Source of the DNA: Polytrichum commune
Lineage: Eukaryota > Streptophyta > Polytrichopsida > Polytrichales > Polytrichaceae
Length of the DNA: 64,000 bases
Assembly: GCA_950295325.1 (NCBI GenBank)
Contig: OX485807.1
Span: 42,808,440-42,872,439 of the forward strand
Reading direction: 5' to 3'
The position numbers were made by a program, and so were the translations under genes. The notes beneath the pieces are model-generated. The model was not told where the DNA came from. It made no database searches and saw nothing but the letters and a program-made list of their open reading frames with translations. Positions 1,823 to 63,895 of the stretch are shown here, piece after piece (the first letter of the stretch is position 1; each line of letters opens with the position of its first letter).

Positions 1823-3817
1823 CGAGAAGAAAAGTTAATGCCCGTATCAAAGTACCAGTGTGAATGTGAGTCCGTTGGCTTAATGTTGATTATAGTTATC
1901 TGTAATGCAACTTAAGGTTTTGTTGCCTCTTTTAAGAGGTGGGTTCTAGTGAAGTATTAATAAACCCATAGTTATTGAGGTGGAGGGATGGGTGCTTGTT
2001 TATTGTCAAGTTTTTTTTTTTGTTTAGGATGAGGTATGTAAGGTATTTGATGGCATTCTGGTGTATATTTTTCATGAGGGTTTTAATGTTTGATTAAGGG
2101 ATTTTTAAGTTGGAGAGTTTAATGATTGAGTGTTTGTGTATAGCTCCCTTGACTTATGTTGTGATAGTGATGAGGGGGGTGGTTTGCCATCCACTGTTCT
2201 ATATGGTGTTAATTAGTGGGTCATGTTTGGTGTGTTTATGTGTGAGGGCTTGATCGGGAAATTTGTTGTGGCAATATGTGAATTCGATGAGTTGGACTGT
2301 ATGTGCAAGTGAGGGTGGTATTGGTGTTTGTGTTTGGTTCGGGGCTCCTATGATGCACAAGATGTCCGGTCTTGATTTGGCTTGGCATTGACAGGCAGGT
2401 TGTGAGCATGTACATTTGAGGAGCCATTATGGGATTGTTTGTTCTGGTGGTTTGTTGTTGAGGTTACATGCATTGGTCAATGTGTAGAATCGGGTATTTT
2501 TGTTGGCTTGTAGAGTTTGGGTAATGAGGTTGTTTAAGTATGGGTGTTCACATGTTGATAACAGGTGGGGCCAAGTGTCTCTGTCATTTTTATGGCACAG
2601 TGTACAGTTGGGGTTTTTATGTGTGAGGGGCCAAAATATAGTCTTCTTGTGGTTTCTCATGTATTGGGCATATTTAAATTTTAGAGCTTGGGTAATTTGG
2701 GCATCGGTTATGCTTTCATTTTTCCTGAAGTGATTGGAGAGATCCTGGTTTATTTGAGTGTTCGATAACCATTTGCCCACATATGGGAATTTGTATTTGG
2801 TTGTTGCAACTTCCCAATTTTTATGTTCTTCTGTTATGAATGTGTGGAGATTACGGATGGCTCTGTCAAGTGTGGCCGTGGGGCAACTGGCTAGCCAGTA
2901 GGGAGTAGGGTGGGATGTGTGTATGCAGGGTGTAGTGGATGGTTTTTCTTTAATAGGTGTGCCTTCATTGGCTAATGTATCAACAATTTTGTTTCCGGTG
3001 ATGCCCGAGTGTGCGCATACTTTATGTATGTATATTGTGTGTGGGGTCCAATATATTTGGTATACAATCTATGCTATTAATAATTTGTTTGGGTGGTGAT
3101 GTTATGATGTTGGTGTTCTATGTGATTGTTGATTAAGATTATGCTATTAAGGCTATCTATAAATATGTGCATGTCTAGTTGGTGGTTTGTGTGGTTTTGA
3201 TAGCAATGAGTATGGTGTTGAGTTCTACCCGTAGGATGTTTTGGTACCTTGGGAATCTTTATGCTATTTTGGGGTTGTTGTTGGGGTTGTAGACTCCTAA
3301 GCCGGCGGTCTTGCCCACTATTTGGCATTCAGAGTTTTTGGTGGGTGGGATGAATGAGCCATCCGTGTATATGCATTGTTATGGGTGAAATTTGAGGGGG
3401 TGGATGTGGTTGTATTGGGTTGGTAGGGGGGTTGTGGGGGTGTTTATGGGAGTAGGAGTGTTGGTTTTGGGGGCGTTTTTCCATGTCTTGGAGAATTTGA
3501 TGTGGTATTGTGTGGAGGTAGGTTTGATGGGGTATGTGTCTATATGGATGTTAAGTGTTTTCTTTAGGACGTGTTGTAGTTCGTGGGGGGTTTGTAGGTT
3601 CGTTGTAAGGTTTACTTGGTTGTGTATGCATATTATTAATGTAAGTGATGGTTCTACTTTTTGATAATATTTTTGTCATTCCAGTGTGGGGTCATAATGT
3701 ATAGTTGTATGTATGTCTATGTTGTTGTAGAGTGGGAGTTGTTGTGATGTCCAGTCATTGTGGTTGGCTATTAGGATAGTGAGTGTACTTGTGTCTTCTT
3801 TGGTTGCCATTCTAGCC
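1823..3817 (-). mobile_element. 5'-truncated LINE with RNase H domain (LINE-I copy 1)
   Basis: A LINE insertion on the minus strand, bounded by a perfect 14-bp target duplication, CAATGGATCATATG, at 1809-1822 and 3818-3831. Going 5'->3' on the minus strand it holds the end of ORF2 (RNase H, then a zinc-binding C-terminus) followed by a 3' untranslated region ending in a pyrimidine-rich tail (CTTTTCTTCTC) against the duplication. A run of 11 T at about 2011-2021 lies inside the element. The 3' part aligns with 55368-55813 and with 16463-16760. It is truncated at its 5' end, as usual for LINEs, because the reverse transcriptase domain is missing. Confidence 0.85.
2427..3816 (-). pseudogene. LINE ORF2 C-terminal part: RNase H plus zinc-binding end, decayed
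   Basis: Reading the minus strand from 3816, a frame opens with MATKEDTST and continues through stops and shifts. From about 3380 it shows ribonuclease H signatures in order: YTDGS (first catalytic Asp), RVELNT (Glu), DSLNS (Asp, preceded by Ile instead of Thr), and GNKIVDTLAN (last Asp). The last open part (2427-2780) ends in a zinc-finger-like CTLC...H-x4-C (TWPHLLSTCEHP). Stops and at least two frameshifts (near 3205, 3075 and 3670) make it non-functional. Cellular RNase H lacks the zinc end, while LINE ORF2 proteins commonly have one, so a LINE origin is favoured. Below 2427 the product continues in shifted frames to about 1990. Confidence 0.85.
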
Positions 3818-3831
3818 CAATGGATCATATG

Positions 3832-4939
3832 AGACATGTTTAAGTTTGACAATCTCTTACTGAAAATTGTTCAGTACCTCATGAAGATTGCTTAGAAATA
3901 TAGCACTAGTCCCTAAAGGCCAAGGAGGAGTTTTTATTTTTTTTGGACTCATATTAGCGTACACACTTACGTTATGATTTTATGAATTGGGACATATGGA
4001 TAACTAAAAGCTTGTGTGAACAATCTTCACTTTACAAAGATGTATCCGTATGGTCAGATCCATCATTAGATGTGCAAATTTTGATTTACAAGGTATTGCA
4101 TTGGGATGAACATTTTCAACTAATTTTGGGGAGATTCTACTTGAATTTTTAGATATTAAGTTCTTAAATTGTCCCCACACACGTACCTAAATTTGATGCA
4201 AGCAATAACGCCATTGGTGCATTTCGCCCCAATTGTTTCCATCAAAGTGTAAATTTGGCAAACCCATGGAACCCCTGGATTTGTAATGTCCATGTAAAGT
4301 CATCCATCAAGAAGGTGAAACCACAACGAACTATGTCATAATTTGGGAATTGCAATGTATAGATGATTTGACCATAAAATGCCATTAGTAACCCTAAATT
4401 GATCCTATGGGGTCTAGTCGGAATGAAACACCCCCCACCATGCAGAGGGTGAGGTTTTACTATAACCCCTTTATCCATTATGGATGAGTTTACAAAGACA
4501 CCACGAACCCCAAGCTAGCCCATGGCCCCAAAACAAAATAGAACAACGAGAAAATGAACCTCAATGGACGTAGGTCATACTATGCCTCCACTTGAGATAT
4601 CCGTTTTAGATTCAACCACCTTAAATATCTTGTATATGTTTTGGTTTCAAGAGTACCAACTTATCTGAGCGGTTGTTAATGCTTAAGTTCTCAATAATTG
4701 CTTTTGCCTATATGAGGACAACTTAACCTTGGCTCTAAGTCTTAAACTTTCAAACTTAGCTACAACTATCTACAAATCTAGAAGTGTCATTTCATGTAGT
4801 TGTCAACACAAATAACATGAGAACTAAGGAGTGAAATAAGGAGGGAGCTAGCAACTTAAGATTGATCCACCTATCATAATTTTTATCTTTAATATCTAAA
4901 TACATGTTCTTAAAGGTTTCATATATTAAACTATTGAGC
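3832..4939. other. Intergenic with weak repeat similarity
   Basis: No gene seen. The segment 4430-4520 resembles 27655-27725 (shared words around CCATTATGGATGAGTT and AGACACC), so it probably belongs to an old dispersed repeat. The rest shows nothing I recognise. Confidence 0.35.
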
Positions 4940-5650
4940 GTTTGAACAAACCAATTCCCAAAAAATGGTGGAATGAAATTCCTCTTTCTACCTCTCCAAG
5001 GTGGAAACTCATTTGGCACAAGCATAAGGCACAAAAGGAAGCAACTTTCATTTGGTTAATTTTCCATAAGGCAGTGGCGGTGAATGAGTGGCCTGGACAA
5101 ATCTCAGCGGAGACTTATCATATTTTCTCCCATTATGGCTTGCGATCTATGGAGTACGTGGAGCACAAATTCTTCAGTTGTACATTGGCTCAACAAATGT
5201 GGCACTACGCAACTAACATTATGTGGCCACTTTTTGCCAAAAAAGGTAACCTTGGTCCTCAGAAATCTTTCTCAATGATGCAATGCCTCTTTGATCAACC
5301 TCTCAGTAAGCCATTGAAATCCTTTGGTTAGGTTTGGGTTTTCTAGAGGAGTTGTCTCCCGTGGATTATCTGGCAACAGAGAAATGATTTGGTGTCTAAC
5401 ATTGTTCAATGGCGAGTGGAGGAAACGCACCAAGTTGTGTGGAATTCCTTGCTTGACTATTATAGACTTGAATGGCAACGAACTCTCCAAGACTTGGAAA
5501 AAGCTCCGATGTTGCTTATCAAGATGTTCGTAGAAAATTTGATTCGGTTTGGTGTGTCAAAGGTCTTATTGTTTCTCGGAGCAATTTAGTGGTTACTTGG
5601 AAGGTTTGACCTTGGATGGACATTATTTCTTGAAGTCCGCTTGGTGGTTG
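4940..5650 (+). pseudogene. LINE-II remnant: reverse-transcriptase zinc-binding region
   Basis: An open frame at 4942-5331 has the layout of the zf-RVT domain at the end of plant LINE ORF2 proteins: WKLIWHKHKAQKEATFIWL, then EHKFFSCTLAQQMW. The second half of the zinc site (EHKFFSC) is kept, but the first Cys pair is lost (SHYG). Beyond 5331 the product continues in other frames as IWQQRNDLVSN and LEWQRTLQDLEKAP, so at least two frameshifts separate the pieces. It differs from the RNase H LINE at 1823-3817. Dead remnant; ends not defined. Confidence 0.7.
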
Positions 5651-6402: not shown

Positions 6403-7145
6403 AGGCCACTTCACACACAAGACTGAGAGCCCATGACCAAGTACACTTCAAGCCACTCTCATTGGTGGAAAAGGCAGAGCCGCTCCGAATTCGCTTCACA
6501 CTACGCTCAAGGGACCAACGGAGTACGTGAATGCAAGATGGATGCAAAGTCTACATGGATTCCTACATGGCACCAAATGAATCATGTTTCATGGTCACTT
6601 GGATTATTTTCAAAAGTCACCTCATGGAGGTAGGCCAAACACAAAACCAACGGGAGACCACGGCACTCCGAACGCTCACAACCGCTGGTTGATTCTATTT
6701 CATCATGCACGAGGATCCGCGTGAATGGAAATCCACTGAAATAGCATCTGGTTGAGGGCCCAGTCTCATACGACTTCACCCTACACTCGAGGGGTCCGTG
6801 ACCCAATGATCGGGGAGATTTTTGGGCATAATCGGTTGACATCCTAGTGTTTGCAAGCCCAACCGGTTATATATCCACATCCTCCGGTTTTCCTTTATTA
6901 AATTGGGGTATATTCTTCTAGAAATTCCTCTAAAACGATCGGTAATTTTCCTATAGTCTTGAACTTCAACCGGTTATTTCTCAAACTCAACCGATTCATT
7001 TGTAACTAACTGCCGGTTCTCCCCGATCATAGCCGTGACCACACCTACATGGTGTTGGAGGTGTGGTGGGACGGCCTTTGGTCACTTTCCTTTGGGCTCT
7101 CACAACATCACGGTCACGGCTCTTGGCTCATGTGTGAAGTGGCCC
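6403..7145. mobile_element. MITE family E, copy 1 (hosts an F element)
   Basis: The ends match the family E terminus GGGCCACTTCACACACGAG (first base A here). The flanking 3-mers are TCA and TTA, one base short of a perfect TTA-type duplication. The body aligns with 10066-10571 and 60958-61460 apart from the 229-bp element inserted at 6804. GGGCC ends with a 3-bp T-N-A duplication fit the Tourist/PIF-Harbinger type. It encodes no transposase; small open frames inside recur only because the copies are similar. Confidence 0.85.
6804..7032. mobile_element. MITE family F, copy 1 (hAT-like), nested in E copy 1
   Basis: Left end CAATGATCGGGGAG, right end read inward CTATGATCGGGGAG. The host sequence CCGTGACC is duplicated exactly on both sides (6796-6803, 7033-7040), and the uninterrupted family E copies have it once. 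An 8-bp duplication with C-A...T/A-G ends is typical of hAT elements. Internally it carries repeated AACCGG motifs. Non-autonomous. Confidence 0.92.
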
Positions 7146-7602
7146 TTAGGGCCTTTGCAAAATAATGCTCGTGGCACACATAAACAACAGTGCTGTGACA
7201 AGGAGCGGCAATAATACATTAAGCAAGGTGGCAGGGCAGGGCAGGGCAGGGGATTGAGAGGAGCATTGGGTTTTTAGCTTATGAGGTCCATGTGTGTTGG
7301 TGATGGAACAAGGAGGAGCTGTCGTCCACGTGGCACAAGGAATCTGGGAGTGGGGCCCACGGGCATATACCCGGGATATACCTGTCGGATATCCAACACC
7401 AGGGTATCTGATCCCCTCTTAAGAGTCTTTATACCCAAAGCTCATCATCGTTATCATGCCAGCGCCAGATTCCCACTGCCAACGTTGTCCCCGCCTGCCC
7501 TCCCTTTCTTTTAGGGCCATGAACACCCGAATCGCTTTTCGACTTTCCTTGTTGCCGTTGTAATTATAGGCTCATTATTATAAGGAGTCAGTTAGACGTG
7601 AT
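7146..7602. other. GC-richer intergenic stretch
   Basis: Contains a short GGCAG run (about 7231-7250) and a small palindromic area around 7365-7400 (GGGATATACC / GGATATCC). The open frame here has no recognisable product. No gene supported. Confidence 0.35.
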
Positions 7603-7689
7603 CAATGTCTGGGGAGGAGTTCTTGGGGCTTATGTTAATCGGTGAAGGAGAACGTCGTCGTCCTAGTGTTTCCGAGCCCAACCAGTTGA

Positions 7690-8114
7690 GGTAGAAATAC
7701 CATAACCCGTGAATTAATAAGGCGATTCGCATTCAAGATCTGGTCTGACAATCATGAGATGATTTTCCCAAGATAGACGAGAAGGATTCGTGAAGAATGC
7801 AAGTTGTTTCGTATTTTTCTGCTCTATACAAAAAATGCTACAATTTTTCAAAGTGGAAAGTTTGTCCGACTCCTTACTCGTTCACTAGATTCTCTCCCTA
7901 CACCGAACATGGTACTCCGCATTTCCATACAGAACATCGCCTAAATCGGTTACCTCATGAGTACATTAACACTTGACTCTCATTGGCTGCACTAAGTGTA
8001 CATGCATTGAAGTTGCCGCCGAGCCATGATCGGTTTTAGAAATGGCAGTTCACCATTATGACGGCAGTCTAGTGCACGGCTAGAGGGTGGTTAACGGGTT
8101 ATGGTATCTCTACC
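7690..8114. mobile_element. MITE family I (PIF-like ends), nested
   Basis: Inverted ends of about 24 bp: GGTAGAAATACCATAACCCG on the left and GGTAGAGATACCATAACCCG on the right, read inward. The flanking 3-mers are TTG and TTA; the uninterrupted F sequence has TTA at this site, which suggests a TTA duplication with one later change. Only one copy is in the window, so the family is provisional. Confidence 0.7.
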
Positions 8115-8122
8115 TTACATGT

Positions 8123-8529
8123 AGTGTTCAAGATTGAAGTCTTCAATGCCCTTTCACACAAGATTTGACCCTTCAGAAATACACCTCTCTCAAAACAACC
8201 CTTCACAACGCAGCCCCAAAATTGAAAAGGAAGACGTCACTCACTTGAAGACTCCTTGATATATGATCTGCATGTCACAAGAACCAACAAATGTAAGACA
8301 TTGTCAAGTGCTACAAGAAGTGGAGTTAGATGATTGATCGTTGATTCTTCACATTGTATTGGAAACATGTACCAGATCTTTCATGCACAAGTTGAATATG
8401 AGTTTTGTGTTTCATTTCTATATTCTTGGATTGACGTCTTGGATTTGAACCGGCCCTTCAAGTGAAAGGCTAAAATTTGAGAGCCCTTCAAAATGAAACT
8501 CGTATGAGGGCTTCAATCTTGAACATTGG
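8123..8529. mobile_element. MITE family J (hAT-like), nested next to family I
   Basis: The ends are inverted copies around GTTCAAGATTGAAG. The 8-mer TTACATGT is present exactly on both sides (8115-8122 and 8530-8537), and intact F copies have it once (GGTTACATGTTG). The left copy of the duplication directly abuts family I, so I and J sit within 8 bp of each other in the same F element. Confidence 0.8.
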
Positions 8530-8679
8530 TTACATGTTGTGATGATCTTTCGGTCTTTCTTTTATTGATTTGAGGTGCATTCCATTTGTTCCTCTGAAAG
8601 GATGGGTAGATTTCCTCCCGTTCATTGGATGTGATCGTCCTTCAACAATTTTCATGCTCTCGGATATCTATGTTACTTG

Positions 8680-10065: not shown

Positions 10066-10571
10066 GGGTCACTTCACACACGAGACTGAGAGCCCATGAC
10101 CATTACACTTCAAGCACTCTCATTGGTCGAAAAGGCGGAGCCGGTCCAAGCTCGCTACTTCACACTACTCTTGAGGGACCAACGGAGTATGTGAATGCAA
10201 GATGGATGTAAAAGTCTACATGGATTCCTACATGGCATCGAATGGATCATGTTTCATGGTCAGTTGGACTATTTTCAAAAACCACCTCTTGGAGATAGGC
10301 CTAACCCAAAACAATTGGAAGACCATGGCACTCTGAATGCTCACAACCGTTGGTTTATTCTATTTTATCATGTGTGAGGATCCGCATGAATGGAAATCCA
10401 TTGAAATAGCATCTAGTTGAGGGTCCGGTCACAGATGACTTCACACTACACTTGAGGATCCGTGACCACACTACATGATTTTGGAGGTGTGTTGGGACGG
10501 CCTTTGGACACTTTCTTTTGGGGTCTTACAATTACACAGTCACGGCTCTTGGCTTGTGTGTGAAGTGGCAC
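10066..10571. mobile_element. MITE family E, copy 2
   Basis: Runs from GGGTCACTTCACACACGAG to the inverted end ...GTGTGAAGTGGCAC. TTA is duplicated on both sides (10063-10065, 10572-10574), inside repeat S unit 3. The body is very similar to copy 3 at 60958-61460. Confidence 0.9.
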
Positions 10572-13269: not shown

Positions 13270-13500
13270 CAATGGACAGAGAAAACCTACCGTTAATTAT
13301 AGTTGAACTGGTGGAGTTAGAGAAATAAACAACTGAAATTCAAGACTTCAGAAAAATGAGCGATTGGTTTAGAGGATTTTTAGAGAATACACCTCAAATT
13401 AATAAAGAAAAAACTGAAATATGGCAACATGTAAGTGGTTGGACTTGGAAACACTAATAAGACCTTGCCCAATTAGGTCCAAAAACCTCCCCGGATACTG
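13270..13500. mobile_element. MITE family F, copy 2 (reverse orientation)
   Basis: Starts CAATGGACAGAG and ends CCTCCCCGGATACTG. Flanking 8-mers CATTGGAT and CTTTGGAT differ at one base. The body carries the family F order in reverse: a CAAGACTTCAG block, an AATACACCTCAAATTAATAAAG block, then CAACATGTAA and GGAAACACTA. Confidence 0.82.
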
Positions 13501-14549: not shown

Positions 14550-14994
14550 ATTCCAGAGATTTTTGACCAACGATTTTTGAGCATAATCGGTCAAGATCCT
14601 AGTGTCTCCAAGTCCAACTAGTTACATGTTGTGATCTTTTGGGTTTCCTTTATTAATTTGAGGTATATTCCATATATTCCTCTAAATGATGGCTAATTTT
14701 CCTGAAATCTTAAACTTCAACCAATTATCTCTCAAACTCTACCAGTTCATATGTAACTACACTAAATCATCCTATTAGTGTGGGTTATCAATCAGAGCTA
14801 CATGTTTTACCGACCCTATCATTCTTTTAACAACTAAGTTATATCATAATCTTTGGTGGTGTATACTAACTATTTATGCTATTTGGGTAAAACACGATGC
14901 TCTCAATAAAATCGTTCTAGCAATGCCTAACTCCAAATGGTAACCCACACTAAGAGAACAAGTTAGTGTAGCAGTCGATTCTCCCCATTCATTG
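14550..14994. mobile_element. MITE family F, copy 3 (hosts G copy 1)
   Basis: The right end CTCCCCATTCATTG and the internal order GCATAATCGGT, GATCCTAGTGT, GTTACATGTTGTGATC, CCTTTATTAATTTGAGG mark family F. The left terminus is eroded, so its start is approximate. Interrupted at 14760-14968. Confidence 0.75.
14760..14968. mobile_element. MITE family G, copy 1, nested in F
   Basis: The ends CACTAAATCATCCTATTAGT and, inward from the right, CACTAACTTGTTCTCTTAGT run into shared GTGGGTTA. TA flanks both sides. Removing the element plus one TA restores the family F sequence GTAACTA(A/G)CAGTCG, so the TA duplication is read directly from the nesting. Confidence 0.88.
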
Positions 14995-15512: not shown

Positions 15513-15746
15513 TAGTCTCCGAGAAGATTTTTGGACATAACCGGTCGAGATCCTAGTGTTTCCAACTCCGGTCACTTACATGTTGACGTCTTTCAAAAAA
15601 AATTAAATTATTGATTCGAGGTATATTCTCTAGATTCCTCTAAAACAATCGGTGATTAATTAATCTCAAGCCATGATTTCCAACCACTTATTTCTCAAAC
15701 TCAACCGGTTCGTCCCTAACTTGCACTCGGTTCTCCCCGTTCATTG
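15513..15746. mobile_element. MITE family F, copy 4
   Basis: Contains GATTTTTGGACATAACCGGTC and GATCCTAGTGTTTCCAA on the left and CTCCCCGTTCATTG at the right end. The extreme left TIR is altered and no clear 8-bp duplication is left, so the start is approximate. Confidence 0.7.
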
Positions 15747-28284: not shown

Positions 28285-28609
28285 ATAATGTATGTCAAAA
28301 TCCTAGTGTTTCCAAGTCCAGCCGGTTACATGTTGCGCTCTTATGGTTTTTCTCTCTTGATTTAGGGTATCTTTCATACATTCCTTTAAAACAATCTCGA
28401 ACTTCAACCAGCCACATCTCAAACTCAAGCAGTGGATGAGTGCTGGCAGGAACGGAGGAGATCAGGGGAAAGTTACATCGGTCAAATCCGACGGTCGAGA
28501 AAGCACAGGCAACATGGCCTCACCAGAAGCCAGAAGCTGCTTTCATCGCCCATAGACTTCTTCTCGACAAGTTCATTTGTAATTAACAGTCGGTTCACCC
28601 CGCTCATTG
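28285..28609. mobile_element. MITE family F, copy 5, with insertion
   Basis: Carries ATCCTAGTGTTTCCAAGTCC and GGTTACATGTTG and ends CACCCCGCTCATTG. The left TIR is lost. The F body is interrupted near 28432-28570 by GC-rich sequence that is absent from the other copies. Confidence 0.7.
28432..28570. other. GC-rich insert in MITE F
   Basis: About 140 bp between family F motifs CTCAAACTCAA and AAGTTCATTTG. Clearly GC-richer than its host, with no TIRs or poly-A, and open in one frame for its full length, but with no recognisable product. Could be captured host DNA or repair filler. Confidence 0.55.
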
Positions 28610-30392: not shown

Positions 30393-33300
30393 TTAATCAA
30401 TCTTCACTGAGGCGTAGATCATTCTCACAAACCAGTAGCAGGCATAGAAACCTATCGTTCCAGTCAGTACAAAGAAGGAATATGAGATGATCACCATGTA
30501 TCCAAAGTACAAAACTCCTGAAACCACCTTAGTGATGTCAAGCTTTGTGAAGAAGTAGAACGCAGCATAGAGGAAAAGGTAGAGTGCTGATGACCCAGCA
30601 GTCAAATATGCCCTCCACCACCAGTGGTAGTCCTCACTGCATAGTTGGAAGTAGCAGAGCACAATTGTGATCTCAGCACAAGTGACCATGAGGATTATGA
30701 ACACAATGAAGAGGAACCCAAAAATGTAGTAGAACTGGTGCAGCCAGATTGAAGTCAATATGAAGAAGAGCTCGATAAACACAGCGCCAAAGGGTAGAAT
30801 TCCTCCGATCAGGATGGAGAACATAGGGCGCATGTACCAGGCCTGCTCTGGCACCTGTCTGGGGATCTTGTTGGTCCTCACAGGGTCTTCAACAGCTGGT
30901 TTCTTGAAGCCAAAATAGCTGCCAATGAAGACCAAGGGCACAGAGATTCCAAACCAAAGCAAAACCAGAGCGAACATGGTTGTAAATGGTACAGCTCCAG
31001 ATGACTTCTGGCCCCAGATAAGAGCATTCAAGAGGAAGAAAATCACGAACACAACAGCTGGGAACATAAACGCAGTCCTCAATGTGTTAAGCTTCCAGTC
31101 TGTGCCCTTGAACATCTTGTACAGACGAGCCGACGAATACCCAGCGAACAATCCCATGAAAACCCACAAAAGAAGCATTGCTGTCATGAGTCCACCCCTG
31201 TTTGCTGGAGAGAGGAAGCCTAGAACAGCAAAGATCATCGTAACAAGGGTCATGCCAAAGAATTGCACTCCTGTACCCACATAAGCACACAGCAAACCGG
31301 CATGACCGGGAGGCCTGAACACATCCCCATGAACCAATTTCCAGCCAGTTTCTTCTTGAGCTTCTTCTTGAGTTTCGAGCTGATTGTACTTTGAAATATC
31401 GCGATGCAATGTACGCATCATGATCATGGCTACCATGCCAGAAAGGAAGAGTACAATCATGAGAGAATTGATGATTGAGAACCAGTGAATTTGGTCATCT
31501 TGCATCAGAAGATAAGTATCCCAACGCGATGCCCACTTCACTTCACTTGGCTGCGCATACACCAAAAGGTATGAATAAGTCACTGAGGTTTACTAGGTTG
31601 CTTACACCCTGGTGTCTCATAATTATCAACAAACATGAATGTGCAAAACTTCAAAACAGTCAACGTTACCATTCTTAGAGTATAAACACCTAGAAGTTTT
31701 GGGCTGTCAATAAACTGAATTGCTATGGCCAGCCCTATCACTACATTAGCAGTCAATGATACTAAAATGGTATAATTTCTTACCTTGAAGGCCACATCGT
31801 AAGTAAATATAATCTCCTCATTGGCAGTAACTTCCTGAGGAGGTTGATGGCTGGTCACAAAAACCTTTGATGCTGGATTGCAGGTCTTCAATTTTGTACT
31901 CTTATCTTCCCATGATTTTTCATACTCATGCTTCACACTGCACACAAGATAAGTGCGTTAGGGACATCACCTAAACTAGTAATAGGGGCACATTGCATTC
32001 GCAAAAATAAACCACTTCTAAATGTGTGAGCTTCTCATTTAGTGTGAAGCACAGTTCCTTGATCTAACCTAAATGTACGAGAATCTCCTGCCAATAATTC
32101 AGATTTCCAGAATTTCGGAAATGTGGCCAGAAAATATTCAAAATACCGTTCTTCAAAATGACTAGACAGTACATGCTCATAAAACATAACAAATGACATA
32201 CCTCATAGGGGTCACCTCAAACCCAACAATCCGAGAAGTTGAGGTTTCAGAGTCCCGATGATATAACACAACAAAGCTAAGATGATTGAAGATGAAGTAC
32301 TTCTCTTCCTTGTTGCCCTGCGAGAAAGGCCAAAGAGTTCGCTGATGCATCATAATTCAGCCCATCAGCAGACTTGAGTACCAATTAGAAACAGAAGAGA
32401 AAAACAACATTTCAAAAACATTAAAACATCACACTCACAGTTTCATAAGAGGCCTTGAATCCAATGGGAAAACCACGATCATATGTAACACCTTCGTTCC
32501 TCCTTCTAACCACAGCCACTGGAAGGTTGTCCAAAATCCTGCAGGTGCAAGTGGCACATTAAAACAGACACTTGCAAATAACTCAAACCAGAAGAAGTAG
32601 CACTCCAATCAGCAGAAGCTACAGAATTTAAATGAAATGACACAGACCAACAAATGTCAACTTCTCATGGGCAATTAAAGAGGGAGATAAGACACCAGAA
32701 CATACATGTTGACTCTGTAGTCGTTCTCAATTCTGTCTTTGAACCCCTTGGCAGACTTATCTGAGAGCTTTTCAATCCGACAGACAATCTTGCATTGCTT
32801 ATCTTCCTTCATTTTGAACTGGAGAATGGACAAGTAAGAAGGCATTAGTCACTAACGCTGGCACACTAACAAACTCTTAATGAGGTCCATAATAAATAAT
32901 AACTATAGATTCATAATATTAATTGAGGCATCTTATAGCCGACATGTGCCCAAAACTGCGTCTCTTTCAGCCTAAGAGGAAAACCTAAACTGCTTAGCAT
33001 TTCTCTAGGAACATGCGCCAGAAAATAAACAAAGGACCAGTCAACTGCAGATAAAGTCGCATCAAGCTCTAATCTCACAGGTATACGTCCAATTCTTCAG
33101 GCACTAGAAACTCTAATGAATTGCAGTAAAGCTTCAGCTATTCAAAAATCAACAAAAATGTACAACGTGTCAGAATACCTACAGTGTGATTAAAAATAAC
33201 TTACTCTCTCGCACTCCATTGCAAAATATACATTTAAGAAAAAAAAATTCAATCATATATGAATAATTATAAATTGGCAGGACGATAGAAATATGGAACT

Positions 33301-53869: not shown

Positions 53870-54098
53870 CAATGAATGAGGAGAATTGGCTAGTAGTTAC
53901 ATATGAACCGGTTGAGTTTGAGAAATAACTGGTCAAGGTTCAAGACGTTAGGGAAAACACCCAACATCTTTAGAGGAATCTCTAGAGTTATGCCCCTCAT
54001 TTAATGAAGAAAGACCGAAAGATATGAACATGGAACCGGTTGCACTTGGAAACACTAGGATCTTGATTGATTATGCACAAAAACCTCCTTGGATAATG
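53870..54098. mobile_element. MITE family F, copy 6 (reverse orientation)
   Basis: Starts CAATGAATGAGGAG and ends CCTCCTTGGATAATG. Flanking 8-mers AGGAGTAT and GGGAGCAT match at 6 of 8 positions (both differences are transitions). 229 bp, the same length as copy 1. Confidence 0.8.
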
Positions 54099-58515: not shown

Positions 58516-59357
58516 CAATGAATGGGGAGAACCGGATGCTAAGTTACCGGTTGAAGTTGAAGACTTCACCAAAGTTACTGACCATTGTAGAGGAATCTAT
58601 GGAATATACCGTAGCACCATAGCTGGGTCGTGCACCTCAAAATGAATATTTATTTCTTTTTTGAAAAATAAGGTTCGTCAACTAAAAATATAATTTATGA
58701 AAATTTGTAAGTCTTATGATTTAAAATAATTTAATTCGTTTTTTTGGGTAAGGTCCAGTAGTACTAGAAGTAGGTTATTGTTTTTTTCATTCATTCGTGG
58801 CAGCTTCTTGGCCTTAAACCTAAGTATCCACCTTAACCTTACTTAGTGTGGCTTTTGTTTGTCTTTGCATAGTGTATGTGTTAGGTCTTTTGTATGTATT
58901 TGCACTTTGACATGTGTGAGAAGAGTGTTAGAAATGGCACCAAAACAACGACATGTTGATTTTTTTTTATCCCTATTAGCAAGGAGGAGAGGGAGATGGA
59001 TATAGAAAGAGAGTTTGCCGCTTTGAGTGAGCAGGGCGCCGAGCCATTAACGCATTAGCATGCAACCTCTTATGGCGCATTGACGTGGTTGGAGCTTAGA
59101 AGAATCCAAAATTTCCATTAATTAGTTTTTTTTTCCTAATATAAAATTTCACTTGTTCATTTGATTGGGTTCATAATTTCCAACTTTTTTGGTTTTTTAT
59201 TTGGAAATTATTTTTGCACGAACTAGCTATGGTGCTACGGTACCCACAATTTAATAACAAAAAAACAAAAAGAATGTCATGAACATGTAACCGGCCAAGC
59301 TTGGAAACACAATAGGATCTCGAGACCGATTGTGCTCAAAAACCTCCCCCGACACCG
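58516..59357. mobile_element. MITE family F, copy 7 (hosts element H)
   Basis: Starts CAATGAATGGGGAGAACCGG and ends CCTCCCCCGACACCG. Flanks ACCTCCTC and CACTCCTC share six of eight bases. Without the 58609-59240 insert and its TA, about 208 bp of family F remain, in the reverse orientation. Confidence 0.8.
58609..59240. mobile_element. MITE family H, nested in F
   Basis: The ends are long and clean: CCGTAGCACCATAGCTGGG on the left and CCGTAGCACCATAGCTAGTT inward from the right, both followed by CGTGCA. TA flanks both sides (58607-08, 59241-42), and excising the element plus one TA restores the family F words GGAATATACC-CAATTTAATAA. 632 bp with a GC-richer core at about 58985-59095; no transposase frame. 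Confidence 0.88.
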
Positions 59358-60921: not shown

Positions 60922-61647
60922 CAATGAACAACAGCTAGTTTCAATTGAACCAGTTGAGGGCCACTTCACACACGAGACTGAGAGCCCGTGACCATTACAC
61001 TTCAAGCACTCTCATTGGTGGAAAAGGCGGAGCCGATCCAAGTTCGCTACTTCACACTACGCTTGAGGGACCAACGGAGTATGTGAATGCAAGATGGATG
61101 TAAAAGTCTACATGGAGTCCTACATGGCATCGAATGGATCATGGTTCATGGTCACTTGGATTATTTTCAAAAACCACCTCTTGGAGGTAGGTCTAACATA
61201 AACCCCGGAGACCATGGCACTCCGAATGCTCACAACTGTTGATTTATTCTATTTTATCATGTGTGAGGACCCGCATGAATAGAAATTCATTGAAATAGCA
61301 TTTGGTTGAGGGCCTGGTCACGTATGGCTTCACACTACACTTGAGGATCCGTGACCACACTACATGATTTTGAAAGTGTCTCGGGACGGCCTTTGGACAC
61401 TTTCTTTTGGGCTCTCACAATTTCATGGTCATGGCTCTTGGCTCGTGTGTGAAGTGGCCCTGAGCTTGAGAGATAAATGGTTGAAGTTCAAGACTTCAGG
61501 GAAATTACCCCATCATCTAAGAAGAATATATGGAATATACCTCAAATCAAGAAAGAAAAACCAACAAAAATCACAACATGTAACCAGTTGGACTTGGAAT
61601 GTGAGGATTTGGACAGATTATGCCCAAAAGCCTCACATGACACCGGG
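60922..61647. mobile_element. MITE family F, copy 8 (hosts E copy 3)
   Basis: CAATGAACAACAG start; the right part carries GTTGAAGTTCAAGACTTCAG, CACAACATGTAACCAG and GATTATGCCCAAAAGCC. Flanking CCCTCAAC and CCCCCAAC match at 7 of 8. The body is split by the family E element at 60958-61460. Confidence 0.75.
60958..61460. mobile_element. MITE family E, copy 3, nested in F
   Basis: GGGCCACTTCACACACGAG on the left and GGGCCACTTCACACACGAG inward from the right: the outer 19 bp are perfectly inverted. TGA is duplicated at 60955-60957 and 61461-61463, and the F host would read CCAGTTGAGCTTGAGAGAT without it. Confidence 0.92.
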
Positions 61648-63464: not shown

Positions 63465-63895
63465 TCTATAATACTATATACTATATATATTTAATACCTT
63501 CTACAATCACAAAGTTTTCATACGCATTTAAACTAGTTAAGTAAGATTGAATGCAACTTAGTCTAATAATTTCTGATTAATCCTAATTAATCCTATTCAA
63601 GCCCAATTAAATCAGAAAATATGCATACCAAATTAATTAAGCCTAATTAATTATAAAATGTCCTTACTGGAATTAGTCATGATTTAAATGGAATTAACTC
63701 CAGTAAATATAATTTATGATTAATTAGGCTTAATTAATTTGGTAAGCCTATTTTCTGATGTAATTGGGTTTAATTAGGATTAATCAGAATACATTAGACT
63801 TAGTTGCATTCAATCTTACTTAATTAGTTTAAATGCATATGAAAACTTTGTGATAGTAGAAGGTATTAACTATATAATATATTATATATTATATA
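63465..63895. mobile_element. Long palindrome / foldback element
   Basis: Two arms of roughly 190-210 bp (63465-63678 and 63697-63895) are near-complete reverse complements: for example TTAATACCTTCTACAATCAC opposite a GTGAT-GTAGAAGGTATTAA block, and ACCAAATTAATTAAGCC opposite GGCTTAATTAATTTGGT. The spacer is only about 20 bp. AT-rich and non-coding, it looks like a foldback-type MITE. Confidence 0.85.

Follow-up and report, generated by a model that had tools for sequence, protein, structure and literature searches.

The short transposon-like elements I and J lie almost side by side within a third element, F, at positions 7603–8627 of the 64,000-nt stretch of Polytrichum commune DNA analysed here (the window), which raises the question of whether they mark a point that attracts transposons, moved into F together, or came one by one, the first making room for the second. 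Three pairs of inverted ends were found within 7595–8635, one each for F, I and J, and the sequence separating I from J is F's own, supporting the earlier proposal that three independent elements are nested here. It is likely, when taken jointly with the order of events proposed below, that the nest is an ordinary one made up of three short non-autonomous DNA transposons.

F, a hAT-like MITE serving as host, was delimited by its ends (CAATGTCTGGGGAG and CCCGTTCATTG), by its family relatives and by a frame scan, and its own sequence comprises 7603–7689 and 8529–8627 (no strand is assigned to any feature of the nest). The adjoining GACGTGAT (7595–7602) and GATGTGAT (8628–8635) match at seven of eight positions, confirming F as a host with a 7/8 target duplication. 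I is a 425-bp element (7690–8114) with 22-bp inverted ends that pair at 20 of 22 positions. It is followed by TTA (8115–8117), which also lies within the left duplication copy of J, and preceded by TTGA (7686–7689), probably an altered copy of TTA; seven of eight F relatives have TTA at this place and the other, copy e, has TTC. J, a 407-bp hAT-like element (8122–8528), has ends TAGTGTTCAAGATTGAAG and CTTCAATCTTGAACATTG that pair at 16 of 18 positions. When J is read with hAT-type ends (TAGTG...CATTG), its left duplication copy is CTTACATG (8114–8121), the first base of which doubles as the final base of I, and its right copy is GTTACATG (8529–8536), which carries F's native G. The spacer between I and J in this frame is TTACATG, 7 bp long; the preliminary description had the nest and its end pairs right but placed I and J 8 bp apart.

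A BLASTN search using copy a and its flanks (6790–7050) as the query found eight F copies outside the nest, within the window. Copy a (6804–7032) is 229 bp, and reading of the ends gave 231 bp for copy b (13281–13493), 234 bp for copy d (15525–15744) and 229 bp for copy e (53872–54088). Copies c (14572–14759), f (61461–61629) and g (28300–28607, interrupted) are incomplete at one or both ends and were left out of the duplication scoring, and copy h (58546–59349) is interrupted. Full-length members of the family thus measure about 229–234 bp, in keeping with the 230 bp first given for F, but the nest host itself retains 186 bp (87 + 99), with a stretch missing before its right end and a short additional stretch in its left part.

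Copy a, with terminal inverted repeats CAATGATCGGGGAG and CTCCCCGATCATAG, is flanked on both sides by CCGTGACC, identical at 8/8 positions and directly outside its ends. It lies inside one copy (X1) of a larger repeat, X, other copies of which (X2, 10066–10571; X3, 60958–61460) lack copy a, and in X2 the segments matching the two halves of X1 share exactly eight bases (10460–10467), providing an empty site. When the 8-bp target duplications were scored directly outside the ends (frame 0), copy a had 8/8 matches, copy b and the nest host 7/8, copies e and h 6/8, and copy d 3/8, with no duplication visible. Frame 0 was the sole best frame for copies a (8/8) and b (7/8), but was tied with +1 for the nest host (7 each), was also tied for copy e (6) and was not the best for copy h (6 versus 7 at −1 and −2). 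hAT-like is a good label for F, which is a mobile element. The pattern for F retrieved none of the viral contigs, and three matches of 14–19 nt (E 0.51) there were not accepted as F relatives.

Repeat X (~500 bp; X1, 6403–7145) has GGGCCACTTCACACACGAG-type ends and is flanked by TTA/TTA in X2, TGA/TGA in X3 and TCA/TTA in X1, making it a better candidate for a PIF-like family than I. Nesting between F and X is reciprocal, as F copy a lies inside X1 and X3 lies inside F copy f.

YARTG is a known end type of hAT elements. The F ends in the window are of this type, with a right end that is mostly CATTG (in copies b, d, e and h and in the nest host), as in J. An 8-bp duplication is present next to the J ends, with 7/8 matches in the hAT-type frame and a perfect 8/8 match, TTACATGT, if J is placed one base to the right; the perfect duplication first reported for J is therefore present, though not in the frame defined by hAT-type ends. 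Pairing of the J ends was rejected as a guide to the frame, as the outermost bases are unpaired in both (T versus C in the first, A versus C in the second). The hAT-like label is a fair one for J. The heptamer CCCTTCA occurs near both ends of J, at 8169, 8199, 8454 and 8484, always on the same strand, and has 12 plus-strand occurrences window-wide; the four near the J ends may be subterminal repeats of the hAT type. BLASTN found no copy of J in the window other than J itself. The 19-base end of J matched 34 viral contigs, which were rejected as J relatives because all of them match the end region only (up to 24 nt), except for two further pieces of J, 14 nt in L024 (E 0.96) and 29 nt in L005 (E 0.28).

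Target duplications of PIF/Harbinger elements are described as TTA or TAA, and the motif G(N)5GTT is reported at the ends of Medicago elements (PMC2213677). PIF elements are also described as favouring an extended target of 9 bp (PMC2836001). I resembles the Tourist-like MITEs of this superfamily in that TTA borders it on the right and its ends are of the form GG...CC, and it appears to target TTA. However, with TTGA at the left the 3-bp duplication is imperfect, and its ends (GGTAGAAATACC and GGTAGAGATACC) lack G(N)5GTT, a motif that may not hold for every PIF group. As the left flank is TTGA and this motif is missing, the PIF-like label that was originally given to I is weak, and I is PIF-like only through its apparent TTA target. 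I was the only copy of itself found in the window by BLASTN, and the pattern for I matched none of the viral contigs.

A 20/22 pair of inverted ends such as that of I, spanning 100–700 nt, occurred once in the 4 kb around the site and in none of 60 dinucleotide shuffles of it. A 16/18 pair such as that of J occurred twice in the real 4 kb and four times in the 60 shuffles (two shuffles affected). A 16/18 pair combined with a 7/8 match of the flanking 8-mers was absent from all 20 shuffled versions of the entire window (shuffled base by base in 500-nt blocks); the real window has three such cases, namely J and two pairs nested within the region 63484–63876. Here the sequence forms a long fold-back; its arms are inverted, the 8-mers flanking it match at 7/8 or better, and it is probably another MITE.

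The longest stop-to-stop frame overlapping 7603–8627 encodes 60 aa, and none of the 10 frames scanned with Pfam, out of 17 of at least 40 aa, matched a family, including the frames tested from I and those from J. No hAT transposase was found for F or J among the frames overlapping the nest (Pfam on 10 of 17). As no transposase is expected for a MITE, only non-autonomous status can be claimed for F and J.

Elsewhere in the window, a 398-aa frame on the minus strand (30396–31589) matches Pfam EMP70 (E 1.4e-166) and probably represents all or part of a gene. Two frames in 2430–5328 match RNase H (below the cut-off) and zf-RVT, which suggests a decayed plant retroelement. The 2-kb bin at 2001–4000 has a GC skew of 0.48 and an AT skew of −0.33, each exceeding in magnitude the values of all 31 remaining bins. 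No Rfam matches at the gathering threshold and no tRNA or tmRNA genes (ARAGORN) were found in the window.

The order of insertion was examined using the F relatives, which can be aligned through the site without a break, their left part ending AACCAGTT(GA) and the right part beginning GTTACATGTTG. In the nest, the left part of F ends CCAACCAGTTGA and the right part likewise begins GTTACATGTTG. The F sequence at the site is TTACATG in six of the eight relatives (b, c, d, f, g and h), TTATATA in copy a and TTCCATG in copy e, and the base preceding this position is G in six and C in two (b and d). The right duplication copy of J begins with F's native G, and the mismatched C of the left copy is the last base of I, where it pairs with the initial G of the opposite end of I. 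As the right copy retains the G of F and the C of the left copy belongs to I, it is probable that J was inserted before I. The G/C difference between the two J duplication copies in the hAT-type frame thus points to F, then J, then I as the likely order. F, a hAT-like MITE, would have inserted first; J, a second hAT-like MITE, would then have entered GTTACATG in F, duplicating GTTACATG and the TTA within it; and I, apparently TTA-targeting, would finally have entered the TTA in the left duplication copy of J.

The choice of frame for J, which rests on the hAT end type and on F's own frame, is the weak point of placing J before I. The hAT-type frame is supported by copy a, with its perfect 8/8 duplication outside the ends and the matching empty site at 10460–10467, and by copy b, which is also best there; it is not settled by copies d, e and h. 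The alternative, in which I entered F first and J was later inserted beside it, gains from a one-base rightward shift of the frame, in which the perfect duplication of J is compatible with either order. A C preceding TTACATG in two relatives (2/8) shows that this base is allowed, though the left flank of the nest host itself (CCAG) shows G. The TTGA at the left of I means that TTA targeting is not clean, and the ends of I and J, each single-copy in the window, are without confirmation by relatives. Had I been first, however, J, read in the hAT-type frame, should be flanked by CTTACATG at either end, but the right copy reads GTTACATG with F's G, and one extra substitution (C to G in the right copy) restoring the family base by chance would be needed. 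Under uniform targeting, the chance of I landing in a duplication copy of J is 3.5% if J came first (3.7% when copy a is taken as the host), and the chance of J covering a TTA copy of I is 2.0% in the reverse order (1.9% with copy a). These numbers favour J first by a ratio of only ~2:1 and are not the main argument for the order. Insertion of I before J is considered unlikely.

Were I and J a single composite element that had entered F in one piece, their both being single-copy in the window and side by side would be accounted for. However, the 7-bp spacer is F's TTACATG, exact in six of the eight relatives, each of the two has its own inverted ends, and the outer pair of a composite would have unlike ends. 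With the spacer belonging to F, a composite was dismissed and is very improbable. The suggestion of a true hotspot, with the conserved GGTTACATG in F favoured by several transposon types with unrelated transposases, draws on the presence of two elements of different kinds within 8 bp and on records of MITE insertions at the same or nearly the same site (PMC3695323). It was not borne out, as BLASTN found neither I nor J in any of the other eight F copies within the window, admittedly a small sample, and the insertions in copies f, g and h are at other positions in F. In copy f, the PIF-like X3 is inserted between CTCA and TCAAC, with TCA on both sides. Copy g contains an unexplained stretch of ~140 bp without clear ends, near the position at which X3 entered copy f. 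The element inserted in copy h is 632 bp in length, with long CCGTAGCACCATAGC ends and a TA flanking it on either side; it is mariner-like in its target only.

The coincidence of I and J is expected in 2–4% of doubly inserted copies under uniform targeting, and, given the site of J, two of the nine TTA/TAA sites in F plus J are inside the J duplication. A hotspot is therefore not called for. It is very improbable that unrelated transposases favour GGTTACATG, or that TTA-targeting elements are actively drawn to a fresh duplication left by a hAT element. The other suggestion made at the outset, that one insertion exposed the site to the second, is supported in a simple form: had J come first, its duplication would have doubled a TTA that I could use.

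F and J resemble MITEs of the hAT superfamily, for which 8-bp target site duplications and terminal inverted repeats of 10–25 bp are described (PMC3942097), in having 8-bp target duplications and short inverted ends with no coding sequence found. They differ in that F and J, being without transposase, are assigned to the superfamily from their ends and duplications only. Jiang and Wessler (2001) is reportedly the classic study of nested MITEs. The insertion of a MITE into a MITE, as seen here, has parallels in carrot, where a Tourist-like MITE with a TTA duplication is described inside a Stowaway-like MITE, and insertions at the same or nearly the same site are reported from carrot, rice and Triticeae (PMC3695323). 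A published tool derives the order of nested insertions from the nesting (PMC2672092). The P. commune nest differs in that two insertions share one duplicated target, and for this reason one base is informative on their order.

Nested MITEs are already well described, and the nest alone is of little significance. If a preference for GGTTACATG, or attraction to the duplication, were true, small transposons would stack at one point. Where a second element has entered the target duplication of the first, a displaced base can reveal the order of events, and an apparent hotspot must be weighed against the doubling of the target by the first insertion.
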